Below, piece after piece: positions 26,901-60,200 of a stretch of 64,000 bases of DNA. The notes under the pieces were generated by a model. It had not been told where the DNA came from. It worked only from the letters and a program-made list of their open reading frames with translations, and did no database searches. The position numbers and the translations under genes are program-made. Every line of letters starts with the position of its first letter. The first letter of the stretch is position 1. Source of the DNA: Xiphias gladius (lineage: Eukaryota > Chordata > Actinopteri > Istiophoriformes > Xiphiidae); contig NW_024401814.1 in the NCBI RefSeq assembly GCF_016859285.1, positions 1 to 64,000 of the forward strand. The letters are read 5' to 3'.

Positions 26901-29461
26901 GAGTGTATCCCTGCACGTTTGCTCGCTACTGACTCAGAACTCAACTGAACTGAGAAATGCATGGATTGTTTAAGGAAGTGATTCAGTTTATTCACCCAAA
27001 AGATTTGTTCTTTTGAAAAATCTTTCACAAACGACACTACACTATCTCATATAGTGTATAAAAATATCAGCAGGATCACCACAGTGCAGTCGTGTGAAGC
27101 TGCAGCTACTGTCATAGCCTTAAATCAGTGACATTGATTTGGGTATTATCTCCAACAGAAACACACAGGTTCTGCCTGTTTAAGCCTACATTCTAATCAA
27201 AGGATCAAAACTGCATTCTCCTGGATCTAATGTTATCAGCTCAAATCAGCAGTTATGTAAGCCAAGACCACAGCATCTCTTCATGCCAAGATGATACAAT
27301 TCTCTGTATCTTGAGATGACAATATTAATTTAATCAAACCTTGTGTTTTCCTGAGGTAGGCTCATATACTGTATAATGTACATATACTTGTGTATGCTTA
27401 CAGGTATCAAACTGAACTTGGATGAATGACATACTGAATGCAGGTGCTTCCACACAGGTCACAAGCCTCCCTGAATGCTTTGATGAGGATAACAATGATA
27501 TGAATCATATGCTATGGTCTTCAAAGTCTCCACATCTCAACCCAACTGATAACCTATGGGTTATGGAGAACACCAAATGAGGGAAGATGTTTTAGAGGAA
27601 TGCTGTTCATCCCTCCAATAGAGTTGCACTAGAGTAACATACTTTTTATTGGATTCAATTGATTGATTGATTAACTTCATTATACCAAAGGGAAATGGAT
27701 TTGCAATGCTGGCACAAAAAAGAACATACTCAGTAGCAGCAAGTTACAAACATTTGCCACACATGATGGACACACAATAATTGTGACAGCCCACATGGTA
27801 CCACATTATGCAGGTAACCAACAGCCACAACACTAGACATCCCTGAACTATAGTGATTACACAGCTGCCACATACCAACTAATGTACATAGCTAATGTTA
27901 GTACATAGTACAATACAGCATCAGCTGTAGTGCTAATAAGAGGACTAAGAATATAATGTGGACAGGTTCTTTGTTCTTTGTTTTTTCACCCATTTGTGTT
28001 TTGTGCCATGTGAAGGAAAAACTAATTGAACAGAGAGTCTTTGTCAATGTATTGTTTTTTTTCTGTAGGAAGAGTCCCTGCTCAGGCGACCAGCAGCACA
28101 CTCAAAAGGAGACAGACCAGGGTCAGAATTCAGAGGAACCCACAGTTCAGCGGTCATTGGCAGTCTCTGAGGAGATTCCTGAATACATACCTGAATTTTC
28201 TCAAGAGTCGTCAGGGGTGGAGCAGCTCTTTCGGCAAGAACATGCTCCTTCACCGTCACCAGAGTGTCGTCCCCTCTCCCCATCACATTACATGAAGCGC
28301 CTGCCCCCTCCTCCAGGCTTCTACCTGTCAAAGGAGCACAGCTACGCTCAGCTCTGCCCCCTGTTGTGGAGGAGACGTTATGACCAGGCTATTGCCTGCC
28401 TGGAGAAGGCCTTACGACAGCTGCATGCAGCTAGGCGGAGGGAAAACCGACTGCGTAGCACTGTGCTGAGGCTCCGTGATAAACGGCTAAAGCACACTCT
28501 GCTTGTGTCACAAGATGGTTGTAACAGCAAGGGGAGCTTGTCACAAGGGGGGGAGAAGAAACAAGGGAAAGAAGGTTCTAACCAAGAGGAGAGTGAGACT
28601 CATGATAAAACTGACAATACAGAGTTTTTTAAGGACAGATGTGTGGATCACATGGAGTTGGGGGGTCATTCTCTTCCAGGCACCAACAGCTGTTCTAAGA
28701 AGGAGAAGGGATACTGTCTTTATTGTGGAAGAGAGCAGGTTCAGGTGGGTGGTCAGGTAGCACACAGTCTTTCAAAGTCTGACAAAGATGTCCAGCCCAC
28801 AGAGGATGAGCACTCAGAGAAGATTCAGAGAAGTGTTGAAATCAGTATTTATGGCACAGCTGAAAATACCAAAGACACAAAGCTAGTCAGGCCAGAAAGA
28901 CCATTTGAAAAAAAAGTACAAACCAGTAACTCAGATGTTGCACATTTCCAAATCCTGCTCCAAACTCCACGTCTGCAACATGTGATCCCTACTGGAGTTT
29001 CTCTGCCTGATAATGATGAGCAGAGTTTGCAGTTTTTAGGCTCAAAGCAGAAGCTGCTACTCTCTAACATGTGTGAGGGGGAGTCTGAAGCTGTGGGTCA
29101 GGAGCATCAACTGGACCTGCAGCAGCAGCTGTTTTGGATACAGGACTGTCCTGAGGGACAGGTCATTCTGGTGCCTGTCCCTGCTGAAGATGGATTAGAA
29201 AGCTTTCTCAAGATGGAAGGGGTTGTTGATGAAGCAAAAACCATATTGGTGTCGGGACTGGATCTTAAAAGAGACTTGGAATACATGACAGAGAATAGTG
29301 GAGCTCTTCCCAGAGTTGAAAAAGTCTGCGAAGATGAACATAGTGACCAGCATTTTGTTATCAACAATACATTAGTGGAAAGGAGAGAAGATGTGAGGGA
29401 GAAACTTAAAGAACACCTAGAGGGATTTCACCTTCAGCTGAGCACCGAATTTATAAACTGA
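17837..29461 (+). CDS. thap7: THAP domain-containing protein 7 (four coding exons)
   Basis: Joined exons 17837-17916, 22721-22858, 22996-23106 and 28069-29461 give 1722 nt, 573 residues. Residues 1-87 are a C2CH THAP zinc finger: Cys5, Cys10, Cys58, His61, with the family-typical Pro29, Trp38, Phe62 and the closing AFPTVF at 82-87. Residues 199-202 (EHSY) match the (D/E)HxY HCF-1 binding motif. Residues ~210-250 are a basic, Arg-rich coiled coil. The last residues ([11 protein letters not shown]) resemble the end of human THAP7. From the family, THAP7 binds DNA and chromatin as a repressor in the nucleus. The protein is longer than human THAP7 (about 309 residues) because of an acidic Ser/Glu-rich stretch (~260-540) of unknown role. 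All phases agree across the three GT-AG introns. Confidence 0.93.
18420..18990 (+). pseudogene. L2-like LINE 5' coding fragment in thap7 intron 1
   Basis: Near 18930-18985 a frame reads [20 protein letters not shown], the opening of an APE-type LINE endonuclease, where the conserved Glu of ETWL is a catalytic residue. Upstream pieces are compatible with the same degenerate element. Stops break all frames. Confidence 0.55.
20690..21160 (+). pseudogene. L2-like LINE reverse transcriptase fragment in thap7 intron 1
   Basis: Frames with shifts read [38 protein letters not shown] (20920-20982) and [11 protein letters not shown], the finger and palm blocks of L2/CR1-type reverse transcriptases. 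FLDLRSAFD holds the first catalytic Asp. It ends where a Tc1 element begins. Confidence 0.7.
21160..22323 (+). mobile_element. Tc1-like transposon (family A), copy in thap7 intron 1
   Basis: The plus strand reads, with stops, through a Tc1 transposase: HTH region (aagcaggaaaaggctataagg), [31 protein letters not shown], and [12 protein letters not shown] near 22105-22140, the catalytic Asp block. The right end is agttttgaccagaagtgcccaaactt...catgccactgtata. It is closely related to the reverse copy at 40335-41799. No copy is intact. Confidence 0.85.
22721..22858 (+). CDS. thap7: thap7 coding exon 2
   Basis: Acceptor ggctag|atta, donor atgcag|gtctgt, 138 nt. It encodes [11 protein letters not shown] through FVYFCSKHF, the remaining zinc ligands and the DNA-contacting helix and loop. 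Confidence 0.9.
22996..23106 (+). CDS. thap7: thap7 coding exon 3
   Basis: Acceptor ctcacag|tggg, donor gtcag|gtaaac, 111 nt. It encodes [15 protein letters not shown], the conserved end of the THAP domain, and a basic Lys/Arg linker. Intron 2 is only 137 bp. Confidence 0.9.
23680..23825. repeat. hAT-like terminal fragment
   Basis: The phrases agtgatgtgcaaaacagt...cagttcattcaaaagattcg...tcactgaactgaa resemble the ends of a common fish hAT MITE. A related patch lies at 26930-27045. Confidence 0.35.
24060..25900 (+). mobile_element. Degenerate LTR-type retroelement in thap7 intron 3
   Basis: It begins atgatctgccccttcttg... with a CT-rich LTR-like body, attaaag (~24415), and the phrase ctgcatttgggtccttactg...gtgac, a familiar end in fish retroelements. 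A short open frame follows from ATG 24508. The segment ends in a purine run at 25854-25872 (aatgaagggggagagt) resembling a polypurine tract. No reverse transcriptase is present. The identity is tentative. Confidence 0.45.
24765..25300 (+). repeat. 27-28 bp minisatellite and degenerate derivatives
   Basis: From 25000 to 25136 five units follow each other, beginning cagtcgg(c/t)gtgcctcc and ending atcc (27, 27, 27, 28, 28 nt). Flanking sequence back to ~24765 and on to ~25300 is built of looser ctagc/cagcctg units. Because the 27 nt unit is a multiple of three, open frames appear on both strands. Confidence 0.9.
26180..26780. repeat. GC-rich degenerate repetitive segment
   Basis: A CpG-containing stretch with recurring cctcc/ggcc words leaves long open frames on both strands (26273-26776 plus, 26638-26231 minus) rich in Pro/Arg or Trp/Arg/Gln. 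No known domain is visible. It is probably a decayed tandem repeat or retroelement interior. Confidence 0.4.
27418..27635 (+). pseudogene. Tc1-like transposase C-terminal fragment
   Basis: The frame reads [18 protein letters not shown] at 27517-27575, the Tc1 block with the SPDLNPIEN-type motif that follows the second catalytic Asp. It is short and truncated. Confidence 0.7.
28069..29461 (+). CDS. thap7: thap7 coding exon 4 (last)
   Basis: Acceptor ttctgtag|gaagagtcc, stop TGA 29459-29461. It encodes 463 residues: a Pro/Ser-rich linker, the [19 protein letters not shown] block, the EHSY motif, the coiled coil, a long acidic region with one CLYC pair, and the conserved tail. The open frame extends upstream to an ATG at 27956, but that part is intron. 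Confidence 0.93.
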
Positions 29462-39000: not shown

Positions 39001-42000
39001 AAAAGCCAAGGTGGGAAGGAGTTTGAATGTAAGAGCTAACTCAGATCTGCAAAAGGTGCTCCATTCTAACTTCATCTTCTGTAAAAACAAATACAAATGG
39101 CTACAAATGGCATAAACATATATAGGGTGTGCCTGTTTCTATCTTGCTGATGCTTGTGACAAAGATCACCTCTCCCTATTCTTAAACCTGTAATAACTGA
39201 TTTTGTGGCCACTTGGGAGCAGAACAAGCTGTGAACACAGCATTGACATATCACATTTTAAGTTGATGTGGCAAATTCCAATAATCACTTTCTTTTTGTT
39301 TTGTTTTTGGTCTCTACCAACTCCTGAGGGAAATATCGGGCTCTTTAGCTGCTCAATGCTCCACTATGTTCACCAGCTGGTCTCTGACCGTGTCTCTCTG
39401 TTGTTTGCTGCTGAGCAGGTAGTGGACGGTGGCTTTTTGCAGCTTTTTCTATGAAAACATCTACCTGCTGCGTCAGAAAATTACGCTATCAGAGCGGCAA
39501 GAGTGAACCAACACAGTAAAGTTCTGGTCCGGGTGGATAAATAATGAGCTGAAACTCAGTATGAAGCTCTGTAAAGCCGATGGGAACTGCAGATTCAGCT
39601 GATAACCTGTTAACCAGACCTGATCCACAGGGGCAGCAGGTGAGAAAATGCTCATATGGGATGTTTTTAAAGACAGTGATAGATGATATTTTTGCATTTT
39701 CCCTGCTCATTGGTTAGTAGCTGCATTTGTTGTCTCTGCAGAAGCGGTGTTTTTGGATGAATAGCCAATAGCAAAGTCTGTTTGAGGGCAATGCCCCATA
39801 TAATCAAATTGGTATTAGTTGTAGGTATGACCATGTGTTTCCTATTGCAATTCTTATCCTTTCTTGCTCCATTTTTTCCCCTTCCTTTTCTTCTCCCCAG
39901 TACTCAGATCTGGAGAAGGCCATTAACACACTGGTCACCCAGTTCCACGCTGCTTCGGCTGACAATGGTCCAACGCTGAAAACTGATGAATTCAAAGGTC
40001 TTTTGTCCTCCCAGCTGCCCAACCTGGTGAAGGTAAAACTGCTGTCAGTTTCCTTGTGTTCCATCCTCAGCTGTGCCTGCTGCTGACAGCAGCTGCTGGG
40101 TGTGGCAGCACACCTCACCTACTCACCTCACACGAAGACAGTCAGAGACATGCTCAGCAGCAGAGTCACGCAGGCCTCATACACAAACCAGCAAATACAC
40201 ACTATAAAGACTTATACTCACACTTTTGAGAACTAGGCTCAGTTGACTGTTGGGAGATTCCATCTAAGGTGTGTATTCACTTTTTAAAGAAGTATACCAC
40301 TGAAAATATGTCTTTGAACGTCAACTTCCCAGGCTAAACTGAGATGAAGTGATTTCCAAAAGGCATATCGTTAAAGATGAAAGGTTTCTTTAATATTTTT
40401 AGCAAGATTACTTTTTTATTTCCATTTTTTACGGTTTCAAAATAACAAAAAAGGAAAAGGGCCACGAAACAAAAGTTTGGGAACCCATATGGTCAGTACT
40501 TAGTAACACCCCCTTTGGCAGGTATCATAGCCTGTAAACACTTTTTGTAGCAGCAAGAGTCTTTCAGTTCTTGTTTTGGGGATTTTCGCCTTCCTTCTTC
40601 CTTGCAAAAGGCTTCTGGTTCTGTGAGATTCTTGGGCCATCTTGCATGCACTGCTCTTTTGAGGTCTATCCATAGATTTTCCATGATTTTTAGTTCGGGG
40701 GTGTGTGAGGGCCACGGCAAAACCTTACGCTTGCACCTCTTGAGGCGGTCCATTGTGGATTTTGAGCTGTGTTTAGGATCATTATCCTGTTGTAGAAGCC
40801 ATCCCCTCTGCATCTTCAGCTTTTTTACAAACTGTGTAATGTTTGCTCCCAGAATTTGCTGGTATTAAATGGAGTCCATTCTTCGCTCTACCAGTGATAT
40901 GTTTCCCGTGCCACTGGCTACAACACAAGCCCAAGCACGATCATTCCACTCCCATGGTTAACAGTCACAGAGGTGTTCTTTTCATGAAATTCTTCACCCT
41001 TTTTTCTCCAAACAAACTTTTGTTCATAATGTACAAAAAGTTATATTTTAACTTCCTCAGTCCACAGGACTTGTTTCCAAAATGCATCAGGCTTGTTAAG
41101 ATGTTCCTTTGCAAACCTCTGACGCTGAATTTTGTGGTGAGGATGCAGTGCAGGTTTTCTCCTGATGAATCTTCCATGAAGGTCCAATTTGTGCAGGTGA
41201 CGCGGCATAGTAGAACAGTGCACCACCACTCCAGAGTCTGCTAAATCTTCCTGAAGGTCTTTTGCAGTCAAACTGGATTTTGATTTCCCTTTCTAGCAAT
41301 CGTACAAGCAGTTTCTGAGTAGATTTTCTTGGTCTTCCAGACCCTCAACTTCACCTTCACCATTCCTTTTAACTGCCATTTCTTAATTACATTACAAAGT
41401 GAAGAAATGGCTACCTGAAAACACTTTGCTATCTTCTTATAGCCTTCTCCTCCTTTGTGGACATCAATTATTTAAATGTTCAGAGTGGCCTTTCCTATTG
41501 ATGACTGTGAACAAGCCATAGCCATAACAAGCTATTTAATTCTGAGACCATGGTAAAAGTAATATGAGAGCTCAAATCTCTTAGGGTGCCCAAAACTGTG
41601 TTATAGTTATCCTTTCCTTTTTTAACTCTAAACTCTTACAAAACAAAAATAATACACTAATTTTGCTTAATATGTTAAAAAGAATGTTTTATCTTTAGTT
41701 TTATCCGTTTTGGAGATCAGTTCCCCTTCTATTCACTTAACTCTTCAGAGTAACAGAAATTTTGACCAGGGGTACCAAAACCTTTCATGCCACTGTATAC
41801 ACTCAAGTTTTTTGATAAGGGAAAAAATGAATTTAAATGATTTTAGCGTAGGGCTCCAAATAACAAAATGTGAAAAAATTGGAGGGGTCTGAAAACTTTC
41901 TAAATACACTGTATTTCACATATACAGTAAATGATAAAGCCTCCACAGATTGGTAACATGATTTGGTTTTCTCTGTATAATGTTAGTTACAGAAAAAGCT

Positions 42001-45771: not shown

Positions 45772-47743
45772 CTAATGGAATGTGGGAGTACATCCTCTTT
45801 TGAGTTTTTTTCCCTCAGGTGTACCTCGAAAGAATTCTAGATAAGATGAGAACACGTACTTATTCATGACTTTGACCCTCCCAAAGATGTTCAGTTCTGT
45901 TTGCTCGTCATGGTTGACAGCATTCATCATCTGCTTCGATTTGATGTACAGGGAGTTTTCCTTTGCAACAACTTGATCTAACCAAATCTGTCTGTTCTGT
46001 GGAGCCATTTCATAGTTGTCAATGGTGCAGCCATAGAATCCTCGTCGCAGAAGTTCAGGCCAGGGTTGCTCAGTAACCATGGGGTGGTCATCTCCAACAA
46101 ACGCTGTGCACAGGAGGCTGTCGCTCCCCCGGGAGCGGCCTACTTCACAGCCAATGACACTCATGAGAAAAAGCGAGAAGGTTCTAAAGTTACGCACAGA
46201 TGCTGAAAACACTGCTGCCATGAAGTAACGACCCCATCTCTCACAGTTGTAATTACACTGTTGGAACTGGAAAGTCTGTCGACAGAAGTCATTGAATTTG
46301 GAAGCTTTGAGACCCTGACTCAGCTCCTGCAGGGAGAACTTGCCCTGTTGCTCATTGAAATTGTTACGGAAATGTTCAATCTCAGCTCGATTTTCAATGC
46401 TTAGGAACTTGCCCACCAGACTTACGCTAAGATTTTTCCCATATACTTTGTAAATGCATTCATTGAGAACATAGTAAAGGTCAGATGTAGCTTCCTCTCT
46501 GGCATTATATCTTATCTCCACAAGTAGATCCTGAATGTTAACAATATGCTTGAAGACAATCTTATGTTCTTCTGGTCCTGGTTCTGTGAGCCAAATTGCC
46601 TTCATGTGTTTTTGATCATGCTCTGGGACATAATCAGGAGCACGCCTTCTTTCATTCTCTTCGAAGAACAAACTCCAAGTAAGCCCCTCCAGGCAGTCTA
46701 TAGAAGGGTACTTTTTACGCAGCTCCATTGGAACAAACATTTGTGGATGGCTTGGCCACTCCAATGTCTGAAGATACAAAACATTTCCTTTATAATCAGG
46801 GAACATTGGCCCTGTGCAGCCAAGCTCCACTTTGGTCAGCAGGTCACCTCTTTGGTCCAGTTCAGCAATGACTCTTCTGCTGTGGTCATGGGACCTCCAG
46901 ACTCCATCAATTCTAGTCATTATCTCTCCGTCAGACCTAACAGACACAAAGGACTTGTATAGGTGCAGCTTTGTTTCCACACTGAAAGACCGGAGAACTT
47001 GGAGCAGCTGCAACATAAAGTGCAGGTCATTTCCAAGGTTGCAACTGACGAGGCTGATGGTGTCAAGATGACCAAATATGCTTTCAGTTTTTAAGGTTGA
47101 CACAAATCTGGCAAGTTCTTCTGAGCCATGACCGGCCAGGTGGACTGCTCCATTGGTACCTTTGCTGCCATGGCCAACCAGTATTATGTCATGATTTCTA
47201 GTAGAAAAAAAATGGCTTCCTCTGAGAACATGCAGTGCCCCCTCCTTGTACCTCAGCAGAGTTGATACACTGGGATGCTTCTCATACAGGTGAATGGCTG
47301 ACTCAATCACTGCAGGGTCCTCTTCCATAATAACTATAGTCTCATGGCTATATTTTGCGTCACATTCTCTAAGGGTCATATTTGGTTGGTAAGAGAAAAT
47401 TTCTGTCTCAACTTTGTCATGGCTGAATCTAAAACCGTCTGAAGGAGTCAAATAAACTGGGAAGGCCTCTTTCATGAGACAAGTACCTCTGACAAAAGCA
47501 GGTACTGTCTGATTTACAAAACACAGGGAATGAAAAGCAGAATTCCAGCTATCAGTGATTCTCTGATGTGTCTTTAACATATATAAAATCAGAGGTTCTG
47601 TAAACCACAAATCTACCCTATAATTGACTACACTCATTGGTTCTGACTTGGTGTCTCTGTAAGGATCAGTTGACCAATTTCCAGCATCTCCAAGATCAGA
47701 GTATGGTGGGTCGAACCTCAGTGGAGTCATCTCAAGATATGCC
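45772..47743 (-). CDS. C80-like gene exon 3 (main exon, 1972 nt)
   Basis: Acceptor atctatttccag|ggcatat at 47743; stop codon ends at 45772. It holds 656 codons uninterrupted, including the whole protease-like domain and the unknown C-terminal half. The first ATG in this exon (47730) is not the start, because the frame is open back to the acceptor and joins exon 2. Confidence 0.93.
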
Positions 47744-49189
47744 CTGGAAATAGATAAGTGATGGGTGGATAAAGAGCTAATGGATCAAATACTCACACTG
47801 ATTGAATATAGCATTGTTTCACTTGAGTGAATTACAAAGAATTGTAATATGCTGTTTGATATGCACATAATTGTAGTATTTAGTATGTACAGTCTAAAAA
47901 AGGAGCCACTAACAGGCCCCAGGATGGCTTCTCCTTTCCACTTTTTTTAAAAACAGAGTTTGCGGTTACTAATTATCAATAGAATGTGCCCACATTACGG
48001 CAGTTAAACCTGTAAACACGTTTTTTTCTCATAGTGTACAGCCAAGCTAGCAGCTCTCTAAGACTGTTCTCTGGCACAGTGACTCTTTGAGCAAAATGCT
48101 AATTTCAGCATGCTGAAAATGACAATGCTTATGTTATAAACATTTAGCAGTTGATTTTTCCCATGTTCCCCATATCATTCCAATTTCCTAAGTACAGCTG
48201 ACCTGATGATGGCGGCACATGAAAAGTCAGAGGATCACCAAAGTTATTGTGATTCAACCTGTGGATCATGGCTGTACAGAATTTCGTGGCAATCCATCCA
48301 GTAGAAGGTGAGAAATTTTTGTCTGGACCAACGGGATGACAATCCCTCACCATGTGTTCAAAGAAACAGTTTATCTTGATGAGACTTTATCTTTAACCTA
48401 GCTAACATCATAGTAGTCTGGAACAGTTAAGCCACATTCAAAGAACAGATGGTATGTGCCTGATATGACTTTTCAAAGAGATACTGTAACTCTGATGACT
48501 GATAAAAAAGTGGGTTCTTTATCTTTCTTCTGTCTGAGTTGAAGTAGTATTGACAGTTTTGTAGTATATATCAAACCTATTAACACAATGTTACACTTTA
48601 TAGTCATTTCCCATCAGAGATCATTGGAATAGTAATGCCTGGTTTAAACTACGGTTAAAAACAGCAGTCTATTGCATGATGTAGTGTCTCACCTGTTTCC
48701 AACATTAGAGCTTAATGGAGTCCTTTGAACACTCCAATCTGTAATAACAAAAACACCAACACCAATAGATAAAACATCATGTCTAATGCTCATTCCACTG
48801 GTTTTCAGCAGTTGCTCTAAAATGCTACTCACCTGCGGATCAGAATAATCATTATTATATATATTATATATATTATAATCATTCATATGTATACATAGAA
48901 TATGGATATATTATAATATCATAATAAATGTTACTAATTTGGTTTTCATAGTTTTTACTGAATAATATATAGAGGCATGGGTGCGGAAGAGATTAAGAAG
49001 TGAAGTAGTTATGAGTTGTCTTTCTTTTGTAAGAAGCTTCATCAGAATGTCATATTTAAGGAGAGACATTAAAACAGAAACATGTCTATTTTAGAACTCT
49101 TTAAAAAGTGCAAGGATCTTACCAGCATTCATTCCTGCTGCTGCCAAAGACAGCTGAACAATAACATAAAATCCACAGGGTTTCAACAT
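45772..49189 (-). CDS. Predicted secreted protein with peptidase C80-like (toxin autoprocessing-type) cysteine protease domain
   Basis: Joined exons 49189-49123, 48738-48693 and 47743-45772 give 2085 nt, 694 residues, with all phases consistent. Residues 1-~20 are a signal peptide (hydrophobic YVIVQLSLAAAG). Residues ~172-335 resemble the C80 cysteine protease domain known from large bacterial toxins: IMEEDPAV (176-183) with KHP (193-195), the His motif LVGHGS (His229), LAGHGSEELA (240-249), and the Cys motif ISLVSCNLG (Cys272) 43 residues after the His, close to the family's spacing. Residues 336-694 are unknown to me and cysteine-rich. Four N-glycosylation sequons (Asn60, 115, 159, 475) fit secretion. 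In toxins the domain self-cleaves when bound to inositol hexakisphosphate; whether this fish protein does so is unknown. Confidence 0.85.
48030..48370. repeat. Common fish interspersed repeat in intron 2 of the C80-like gene
   Basis: Phrases aaaagtcagaggatcaccaaagttattgtgattcaacctg and atttcgtggcaatccatcc match a high-copy repeat I recognise from teleosts. It is noncoding. Confidence 0.55.
48693..48738 (-). CDS. C80-like gene exon 2 (46 nt)
   Basis: Acceptor tttttgttattacag|attggag and donor gaaacag|gtgaga. It encodes DWSVQRTPLSSNVGN in phase with both neighbours. An upstream acceptor (gatccgcag, ~48835) is an alternative but breaks phase with exon 1. Confidence 0.75.
49123..49189 (-). CDS. 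C80-like gene exon 1 (signal peptide)
   Basis: ATG at 49189-49187, 22 codons plus one base, then donor gctg|gtaaga. It encodes a typical signal peptide that ends at or near the exon boundary. It was chosen because its phase (+1) matches exon 2. Confidence 0.78.
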
Positions 49190-57249: not shown

Positions 57250-60200
57250 TTGCAGCCTTATCTGCTTTTTATTCCTTTGATACCAATGTGTGCTGGTACC
57301 CATAACAATATTAGTGTAAGATCCATCATCTGAATTCTGTATATTGTTTTTGGTTTTTCTATCAAAATGTCTGCTCTGCTGTCTGAGTGACTGAACTGTA
57401 AACTGAGCCTGAGTCTGAACAAATGATTGCTCTCACTGGTCTTGTATCCTCCATCAACTGCACTGCCAACAACATTACAAGCATTTCTCCTTTTTGAACT
57501 GATAGTCCCTCCCTGATCCCTTTCCGTCCTTTGATATGGCACTCAAGGACAATAAATGCTACTGCTATTTTATTAACTAAACTCTTTGATGCATCTGTGT
57601 AGCTCTGGATGTTATTGTTGTAACTATCAATGTATGCCTTTATGTTATGTGAATTAAAAAAAAAACTCCCTATCCTTGTTTTCCTTTTCTAATAATGTAA
57701 AATCTACTGTGGTGACAGGAAGTATCCATGGTATTACTGTTGGACTAAGGTTTAGTTGAGTTACTTTATGTTCTGTTGCTTTTCTTTGTCACTCTCCATA
57801 GAAAACTTTTTGGTTATCTCTTCTTCTTCTCCCAACAAGGTCGGAAAGTGTTTTGTGTTGGATGATCTTGACTGTGGCCCTGTAAATTAACCCAGTAATT
57901 CAGTTAGAGCTATATCCTTCTCATTTCTAGTGGCATTTTCTTTAAGTTTTAAATGCACCCGAGCATAATCTCTAAAATTTTGAGAGATATGCTTGCTGCT
58001 GATCCACACAACCATAATCTGATATTCATCTAAATAATCCACTGTATATGGCCTTCAAAGCAGTTCGCTCTGCCCCCAATTCGCTTCCAACCAGACTCCT
58101 CATTACCTTTAATTCTTTCTTACATTTGTCGACTACTTTCCTAATAAGCAGAGCCACTGTAACTGGGACAAAGACAATGTTCCATGTAGAGAACAATTTC
58201 TTTGTCTTATCAACTAAAAGTTTAGAGCCCCATCTATATGACCCATCTTCTACTTACATAACAGCCCCCTGCATTTCCCTTACAATGAAACTGCCCCATC
58301 ATCTGCAGAAAGTGAAAACCCCCATCCCATTCTCCATTTCCATAAATACATCATTTATCATTATGGAGAATAGAGCTTATTATGCGTCCTTGAGTTGTTC
58401 CATTTTCAACAACAAATCTTCCTGAATAGTTCTTTCCTATTCTGACTTGTATTATTCTTCCCAGTAAAAAGTCCTTAGTCTATCTATTCTGTACATTTGA
58501 CCTTTGATACCTAATTTACTAAGTCTTATTAATAATCCTTCTCTCCACATCATATCATTTGCTTTCTAAAAAAGTGAACCACTACACTTCTTCTATTACA
58601 TGTGGTTTTCTAATTTCATGTTCTAAACATAGAGCTGGGTCCATAGTATTTCTTCCTCTCCTAAAGCAACTCTGGTATTTGGATATATATCCTTTATTTT
58701 CTGTGTAATAAGTTAACCTTTCACTTTCATTTTATCCATTATTTTGCATATGTTGGATGTTAAAGAAATTGGTCAATAACTCCCTGGGTCTGTACAATCT
58801 TTCCCTGGTGTTTGTATTGGAACTACAACAGCCACCTGTCAGCTGTGTGGCAATTGCCCACCCTCCCAAACTTTATTACATAGCTCCAGTAAAATGTCCT
58901 CAGATGATTCACAGAGATGGTTTACTACTATATAACAGATCTGATCCTTGCCTGGTGTTGACATCTTGGTTTTCCTGAGAGAGTGGTTCAGTTCCGTCCT
59001 TGTAAATGCACAGATCGGGATTGATGACTGCAGTACTAGGACCTTGTTTAGGAGGCCACTGGTGTCTTCCTCGTGCTGTAGTAGCTCTTCAATCTCCACT
59101 ATCGTAGTTTCAATTCCTCTCCATTCCATCCTCTTCCTCCCCCTCTCCACTAATATTGTCTGAACTATGAATTTTATCACAACTTTTTGCCAGTATCTCT
59201 GCTTTATTCTCATCTCTCACTGCAGGTGTTAAGACTTGAAACCCATACTCTCTTTTAATAAAGTTCCTTCTCTTTATATTCTCCAAATTTAATAGTATTA
59301 TAGTATTATAGCATTATAGTATTATAGTATTATAGTATCCAAATTTAATACATTTGTTTTCCTTTCCACTGAGTTACACAATTTCCTCCAAAAGTCCTTC
59401 TTTGCATTTTTTATGATTCTCCTTACATTTGCCTGCAACCTTTTTATATTCAATAAGATTCTGAAAACCTCTTTTAAACATTTTAAAAGCTTTCTTTTGA
59501 GACTCAATTGCTTTATTACAATCCTTTGTCCACCATGGTACAATTTTCTCTCTGCGCTGACCTCCTTTCCTCTAAAGAGACTGTAGAATAGCTTAACAGA
59601 AAAATGTAAATTATCAACATCTTAATTAATATCAATTTTTTGCATTTCATGATCACTAATTTAACTAAATGTCTTCCACTCAATACAACTGAAAGATCAT
59701 TTCTGTAATCCTCCTATATCATATTCTTCTACATTCACGCCTACTTCAGTTACTATACGGTAAAAGTCACTTCCTACAGTCATTCTTCTAGCCATTTCCC
59801 ATGAGTAAACACCTGTCAATGAATCTGACGGTAGTGTAAGATCTATGGCGGATTCTGTACCTGTTCTGACATTAATACTTGTGCCACTTCCGTCATTTAG
59901 GCACACTAAATTTTGAATCTCCATTTACTGTTCAATTGCCATTCCTTTGCCGTCATTACAGTTATCCTGTAACGTACTATGGGCATTCAATTCTTATCCA
60001 TTGTCAGGGCTTTATTCGTTTTCTCTGTTTGACCTACCTCTGCTCTTGAACATTGGTAACTTTGCCAGTTTCATCACTTGCCCTTTGTCCATGTACCCTA
60101 TTTGCTATCTCTGTATAGTTTATGTTGTCAACTGCTTTCACTTTCTCAGTTTCTTCAGCCTTCTTCCTGACTTCTCAACCACCATTTGTTACCCTGTGCT

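Follow-up and report, generated by a model that had tools for sequence, protein, structure and literature searches.

A conserved teleost gene for a putatively secreted two-domain protein with a MARTX-type C80 protease domain

C80 proteases are parts of bacterial toxins, for which host inositol hexakisphosphate (InsP6) is the signal of arrival in the cytosol. A gene of the swordfish Xiphias gladius raises the question of what such a domain does in a fish protein that starts like a secreted one. The gene lies in the window analysed here, a stretch of 64,000 nucleotides comprising positions 1 to 64,000 of contig NW_024401814.1 (assembly GCF_016859285.1). The original prediction, made from the sequence alone, had placed a three-exon gene for 694 residues at 45772..49189. 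Scripted splicing of 49189-49123, 48738-48693, and 47743-45772 confirmed these coordinates, the three exons, and the 694 residues, followed by a stop codon, and showed the gene to be on the minus strand, a point that had gone unstated. Both introns are bordered by GT/AG, the spliced frame is open throughout, and no second copy of the gene was found within the 64-kb window. On balance, the gene, which teleosts have conserved as one of their own, probably encodes a secreted protein of two domains, the first being a C80 protease of the kind found in multifunctional-autoprocessing repeats-in-toxin (MARTX) proteins, most likely active, held latent as set out below, and of bacterial source. The features of the gene are as follows, with row counts referring to an alignment of 79 sequences.

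49123..49189, minus strand: exon 1, which opens with the start codon and encodes the signal-peptide-like segment (residues 1-22 and the first base of codon 23), with a GT donor, an open frame, and a hydrophobic stretch; orthologues start alike
48693..48738, minus strand: exon 2, short linker (residues about 23-38) with AG/GT borders and fitting phase; orthologue proteins have a similar segment behind their signal peptide
45772..47743, minus strand: exon 3, which runs from the third base of codon 38 through residue 694 to the stop and contains both domains; AG acceptor, 670-codon open stretch
46921..47355, minus strand: Peptidase_C80 domain, Pfam match to residues 144-288 of the open reading frame (ORF) 45772-47784
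47170..47172, minus strand: codon of the putative catalytic His229, His in 79 of 79 rows
47041..47043, minus strand: codon of the putative catalytic Cys272, Cys in 78 of 79 rows, one gap
46897..46899, minus strand: codon of Trp320, the equivalent of the toxin-domain flap Trp, Trp in 79 of 79 rows
45775..46821, minus strand: C-terminal domain, residues 346-694, without a Pfam family and conserved above the C80 part; mean predicted local distance difference test (pLDDT) of the model 66.4, predicted template modelling score (pTM) 0.70
46135..46146, minus strand: E571-V-G-R574, where a hydrophobic helix of the C-terminal domain ends, Glu571 in 79 and Arg574 in 70 of 79 rows, in a low-confidence region of the model

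The Pfam profile PF11713 (Peptidase_C80) matched the large ORF with an E value of 1.6e-19 and 71.2 bits against a cut-off of 23.8. This sequence match is far beyond chance, and no other Pfam family was seen at E ≤ 1. With the same cut-off, four one-domain relatives scored 70.4-81.7 bits and a two-domain protein of Albula 148.6 bits. The fish domain is predicted to adopt the cysteine protease domain (CPD) fold, with His229 and Cys272 on the two loops that carry them in the toxin domain and, in the model, flap strands on both sides of Trp320 (indices 163-173 and 179-184). Profile and predicted structure thus both match the toxin domain, and the C80 assignment of the original prediction is borne out. 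Its motifs were located where it had placed them (IMEEDP at 176, HGS at 229 and again at 243, SCN at 271), and His229 and Cys272 are indeed 43 positions apart. The second His motif, LAGHGS with His243, had been counted as a feature of the domain and is not family-wide, as Tyr occupies this position in 17 of 24 aligned rows.

Two protein searches returned 83 and 86 clusters of relatives, 87 of them distinct. All clusters named by source are from ray-finned fishes, ranging from Arapaima, Albula, and Aldrovandia through perch-like fishes; medaka has an orthologue as well (P0064). Such searches catch only relatives that share short exact words and have a similar length, and hence are uninformative on presence outside teleosts; a search with the C80 part of Arapaima returned four proteins and missed known fish orthologues, so that it is not evidence of absence. 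By these sequences, the gene is conserved across teleosts. The alignment comprises the window sequence and 78 of the 87 clusters, partial, fused, or odd models having been left out (P0046, P0047, P0067, P0068, P0073, P0077, P0081, P0083, and P0087). The first of these, from Albula glossodonta, is a 1109-residue orthologue model with two C80 stretches, which points to either a tandem copy or gene models that were merged. The second, from Liparis tanakae, is a fish orthologue that carries the over-transferred name "Multifunctional-autoprocessing repeats-in-toxin" in public records. A quick tree was made from C-terminal columns only, so that the pocket residues had no influence on it; 30 of its 76 inner branches are open. 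The 66-row clade that contains the window sequence is taken to represent the spiny-rayed fishes, judging from its named members.

Between residues 170 and 330 of the 79 rows, the majority residue reaches at least 0.97 in 10 of 161 columns, and only three columns are fully invariant, namely those of His229, Cys272 (apart from its gap), and Trp320. They coincide with the three positions to be expected from the toxin literature. By our own arithmetic, drawing three of the 161 columns at random would match them in about 1 of 680,000 draws, a figure to be read with the reservation that His, Cys, and Trp are often conserved anyway and that the rows are related. The retention of fold and catalytic pair that had been proposed is thereby upheld. 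At the position equivalent to Asp3469, 67 of 79 rows have Asp and 7 have Glu; in the published passage on the Vibrio cholerae domain, mutation of this Asp left the domain working (PMC2900308). The conservation pattern suggests that the fish domain is most likely still catalytically active.

The start of the protein, MLKPCGFYVIVQLSLAAAGMNA, resembles a signal peptide, as had been predicted. A hydrophobic start, defined as a mean hydropathy of at least 1.6 over 12 residues within the first 40, is present in 31 of 55 orthologue models by this simple test, the 55 being the 59 named clusters minus P0067, P0068, P0083, and P0087. The N-terminal exons recur as protein in orthologues, e.g., as MLKPWGFCVIVQLSLAVGINADLSVKRTSF in Sander P0002. 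The window protein has sequons at residues 60, 115, 159, and 475, of which the last is kept in 54 of 79 rows and that at 159 in 2 of 79. We infer that the protein is secreted via its signal peptide.

For a comparison of the InsP6 pocket, residues were taken from published passages on V. cholerae (Lys3482, Lys3611, Lys3623, and Asp3469) and V. vulnificus (His3642, Arg3769, Lys3770, Lys3782, Lys3787, Trp3779, His3678, and Cys3727), and toxin numbers were converted to chain positions by counting on a printed alignment, on which both sets agree. Arg29, which is within the published pocket-wall loop, and Arg85 presumably contact InsP6. Arapaima P0078 has the toxin residue at all 11 positions checked and Oncorhynchus P0066 at 9 of 11. 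In the window fish, the positions of R29, K54, R85, R182, K183, K195, and K200 are occupied by Lys, Lys, Asp, Glu, Ile, His, and Arg, respectively. According to a published passage, the three Lys residues that weigh most for InsP6 binding are K54, K183, and K195; the early-branching Arapaima retains all three. Arg at the R85 position (6 of 79 rows) and Lys at the K183 position (4 of 79) do not occur within the 66-row clade, and the His3642 position is His in 51 of 79 rows. Judged from these residues, the pocket appears to grade from full in Arapaima to partly lost in spiny-rayed fishes.

In an alternative explanation, the domain is active while InsP6 plays no role in the window fish or in the majority of the others; the pocket would be a relic or accommodate another ligand, and activity would be constitutive or triggered by luminal conditions or by binding of a partner. 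The equivalents of R85, R182, K183, and K195 are Asp, Glu, Ile, and His in the window fish, the latter two changes being widespread (Ile in 58 and His in 59 of 79 rows), and the catalytic pair is invariant despite these changes. However, the flap Trp never varies, and 77 of 79 rows have Lys or Arg at the K54 position, the other 2 being gaps. Taken together, we regard such InsP6-free activity as a possible but rather unlikely explanation.

A loss of protease function, with the C80 fold serving to bind a ligand or as a scaffold and the work left to the C-terminal domain, is considered improbable. The C-terminal domain is indeed the better conserved of the two, with a mean majority fraction of 0.811 vs 0.699 in the C80 part and 95 of 346 vs 9 of 161 columns at 0.98 or above. 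Yet the columns of the C80 part that never vary are those of the catalytic His, the Cys, and the flap Trp, which argues against a scaffold role, as a scaffold would not need them.

This large C-terminal domain had been passed over in the original prediction, whose account of the domains stands for the C80 part. Searches by sequence with the window protein and its relatives found no Pfam family for it. In a structural alignment of its model, the nine best rows were all ribosome-inactivating proteins (RIPs), with Z scores in a range that the tool calls common. Of the residues compared with the RIP active site, Glu571 and Trp625 are present in 79 of 79 rows and Arg574 in 70, and E571-V-G-R574 might be an analogue of the RIP motif Glu-x-x-Arg. 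The PF00161 profile matched none of the 63 and none of the 10 members searched at E ≤ 10, with filters that drop most matches above about 0.1, and a profile of the C-terminal domain gave 12 matches among solved structures at E ≤ 10, none of them a RIP. The RIP identity raised by the structural alignment was rejected as the main reading on these Pfam and solved-structure searches. If it held, the fish protein would be a host-made, two-part killing or defence protein, in which an InsP6-responsive C80 protease is joined to a very divergent RIP-like (rRNA N-glycosidase-like) domain. Secreted into plasma or mucus, it would be unleashed in cells that take it up, both toxin-type domains having been acquired and kept since early teleost history. 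We deem this quite unlikely, the more so as the supposed active-site stretch sits in poorly modelled blocks (pLDDT 54-59).

That the gene is a contaminant or was inserted recently from bacteria in this assembly, which might come to mind since C80 domains are known above all from bacterial toxins (PMC2900308), is scarcely credible in view of two introns with proper borders and is refuted by independent records of orthologues in many teleosts, a good number of them on long contigs. A bacterial origin of the C80 domain as such is plausible, judging from where C80 is known to occur and from the location of both domains within one exon. A viral or phage source was also considered and rejected: no relative was present in viral contigs (two different queries) or phage records, and a search of viral models by fold gave nothing at E ≤ 0.001. 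No prokaryote relatives of the C-terminal part were found in the genome collection with patterns for this part only, which are silent on bacterial C80 domains.

In the favoured explanation of a latent, secreted C80 protease, the protein would circulate or be stored in latent form until a ligand fills the pocket behind the flap, upon which the flap with Trp320 would order the active site. In early-branching lineages, this ligand would probably be InsP6, met in cells or leaking from them, and the protein would then sense entry into cells or damage to them. The pocket of spiny-rayed fishes is less basic, and there the trigger may have changed or weakened. The target of cleavage would not be an N-terminal passenger. 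Six orthologues (P0043, P0049, P0051, P0052, P0054, and P0058) have their first C80 motif as early as residue 42-46, shortly behind the signal peptide and the exon-2-like segment, which leaves about 18-21 residues between the end of the signal peptide (estimated near 21-22) and the place of Arg29. In the toxins, InsP6 induces self-cleavage behind a Leu that lies upstream of the domain; as counted from a published passage, 29 residues separate the scissile bond from Arg3616 in the V. vulnificus domain. The leader in the six models is shorter than this geometry, so that removal of an N-terminal passenger, for which the toxins use the domain, would not be the common role, unless the models miss an exon; N-terminal autoprocessing as a general role is weakened accordingly. 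The sequence KEAFPVYLT, located ahead of the domain, is shared by some perch-like fishes, is absent from others, and is not claimed as a cleavage site. The protease could instead cut the inter-domain segment or a distinct substrate to which the C-terminal domain binds. The fish line probably acquired the C80 domain from bacteria, and the signal peptide would have been gained via the short upstream exons.

Several observations weigh against this explanation. The window fish retains only one of the three key Lys residues (K54), with Ile and His at K183 and K195, and has acidic residues in place of R85 and R182. A hydrophobic start is lacking in 24 of the 55 named models, perhaps because they are truncated; some begin just before the C80 domain. 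InsP6 is mainly cytosolic according to passages of the review cited above (PMC2900308), so that an extracellular InsP6-gated protease needs an unusual setting. No published measurement of activity, secretion, or InsP6 binding and no functional study of the fish gene were found in a literature search of titles, abstract beginnings, and passages, with most subscription papers outside its scope. When the Pfam name and accession were looked up in full-text literature, the sole animal protein among the four papers returned, the other three being judged by title and abstract beginning, was Seq34341 of nurse shark plasma, an uncharacterised protein reported in 2022 and annotated in the passage concerned as peptidase C80, Ca2+-binding, and RTX toxin-related (PMC9207270); its annotation makes it a candidate relative of the fish gene.

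Databases already label these fish proteins "Peptidase C80 domain-containing protein", so the domain call is not new, and the novelty claimed in the original prediction is weaker than its C80 domain, fold, catalytic pair, and signal-like start, which all held. A wider family that includes the toxin CPDs and has putative eukaryotic members is mentioned in passages of the review (PMC2900308), the only paper that turned up in the literature search for the name of this family. Within the scope of the same search, no description was found of the conserved active centre, the graded pocket loss, or the conserved partner domain. Catalytic residues kept across teleosts on a secreted-looking protein make it testable whether animals have repurposed a toxin switch, e.g., for sensing cell damage or invasion. 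The series from full pockets (Arapaima) to partly lost ones (spiny-rayed fishes) offers natural variants for comparison, and the C-terminal domain is even more strongly conserved and has no assigned family.

Elsewhere in the window, a weak DDE_3 match at 40496-40864 on the minus strand (25.6 bits vs a cut-off of 28.6) is a probable remnant of a Tc1-like transposase. A sub-threshold SelP_N match at 58842-59216 on the minus strand (20.4 vs 23.2 bits) looks rather like what we take to be a reverse transcriptase fragment. A 519-residue open frame without Pfam match at 27902-29458 on the plus strand is possibly a coding exon of another fish gene.

Among known systems, legumain, the C11 proteases, and other clan CD enzymes gave matches far below those to C80, and the CPD of the large clostridial glucosylating toxins gave a much weaker sequence match than MARTX (E 0.09 with the fish profile). 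RIPs differ from the C-terminal domain by sequence, with no Pfam or PDB match, and the stretch supposed to resemble their active site is poorly modelled. The shark protein Seq34341 is, like the fish protein, annotated with C80, and is a plasma protein of a cartilaginous fish; unlike it, Seq34341 also carries the Ca2+-binding and RTX toxin-related annotations. The closest system is the MARTX CPD, from which the fish version differs in being part of a host gene with introns and a signal-peptide-like start, in the partial loss of the basic InsP6 pocket in the window fish, in the little room left for an N-terminal passenger in six orthologues, and in its C-terminal partner domain, which by sequence falls into no known family.
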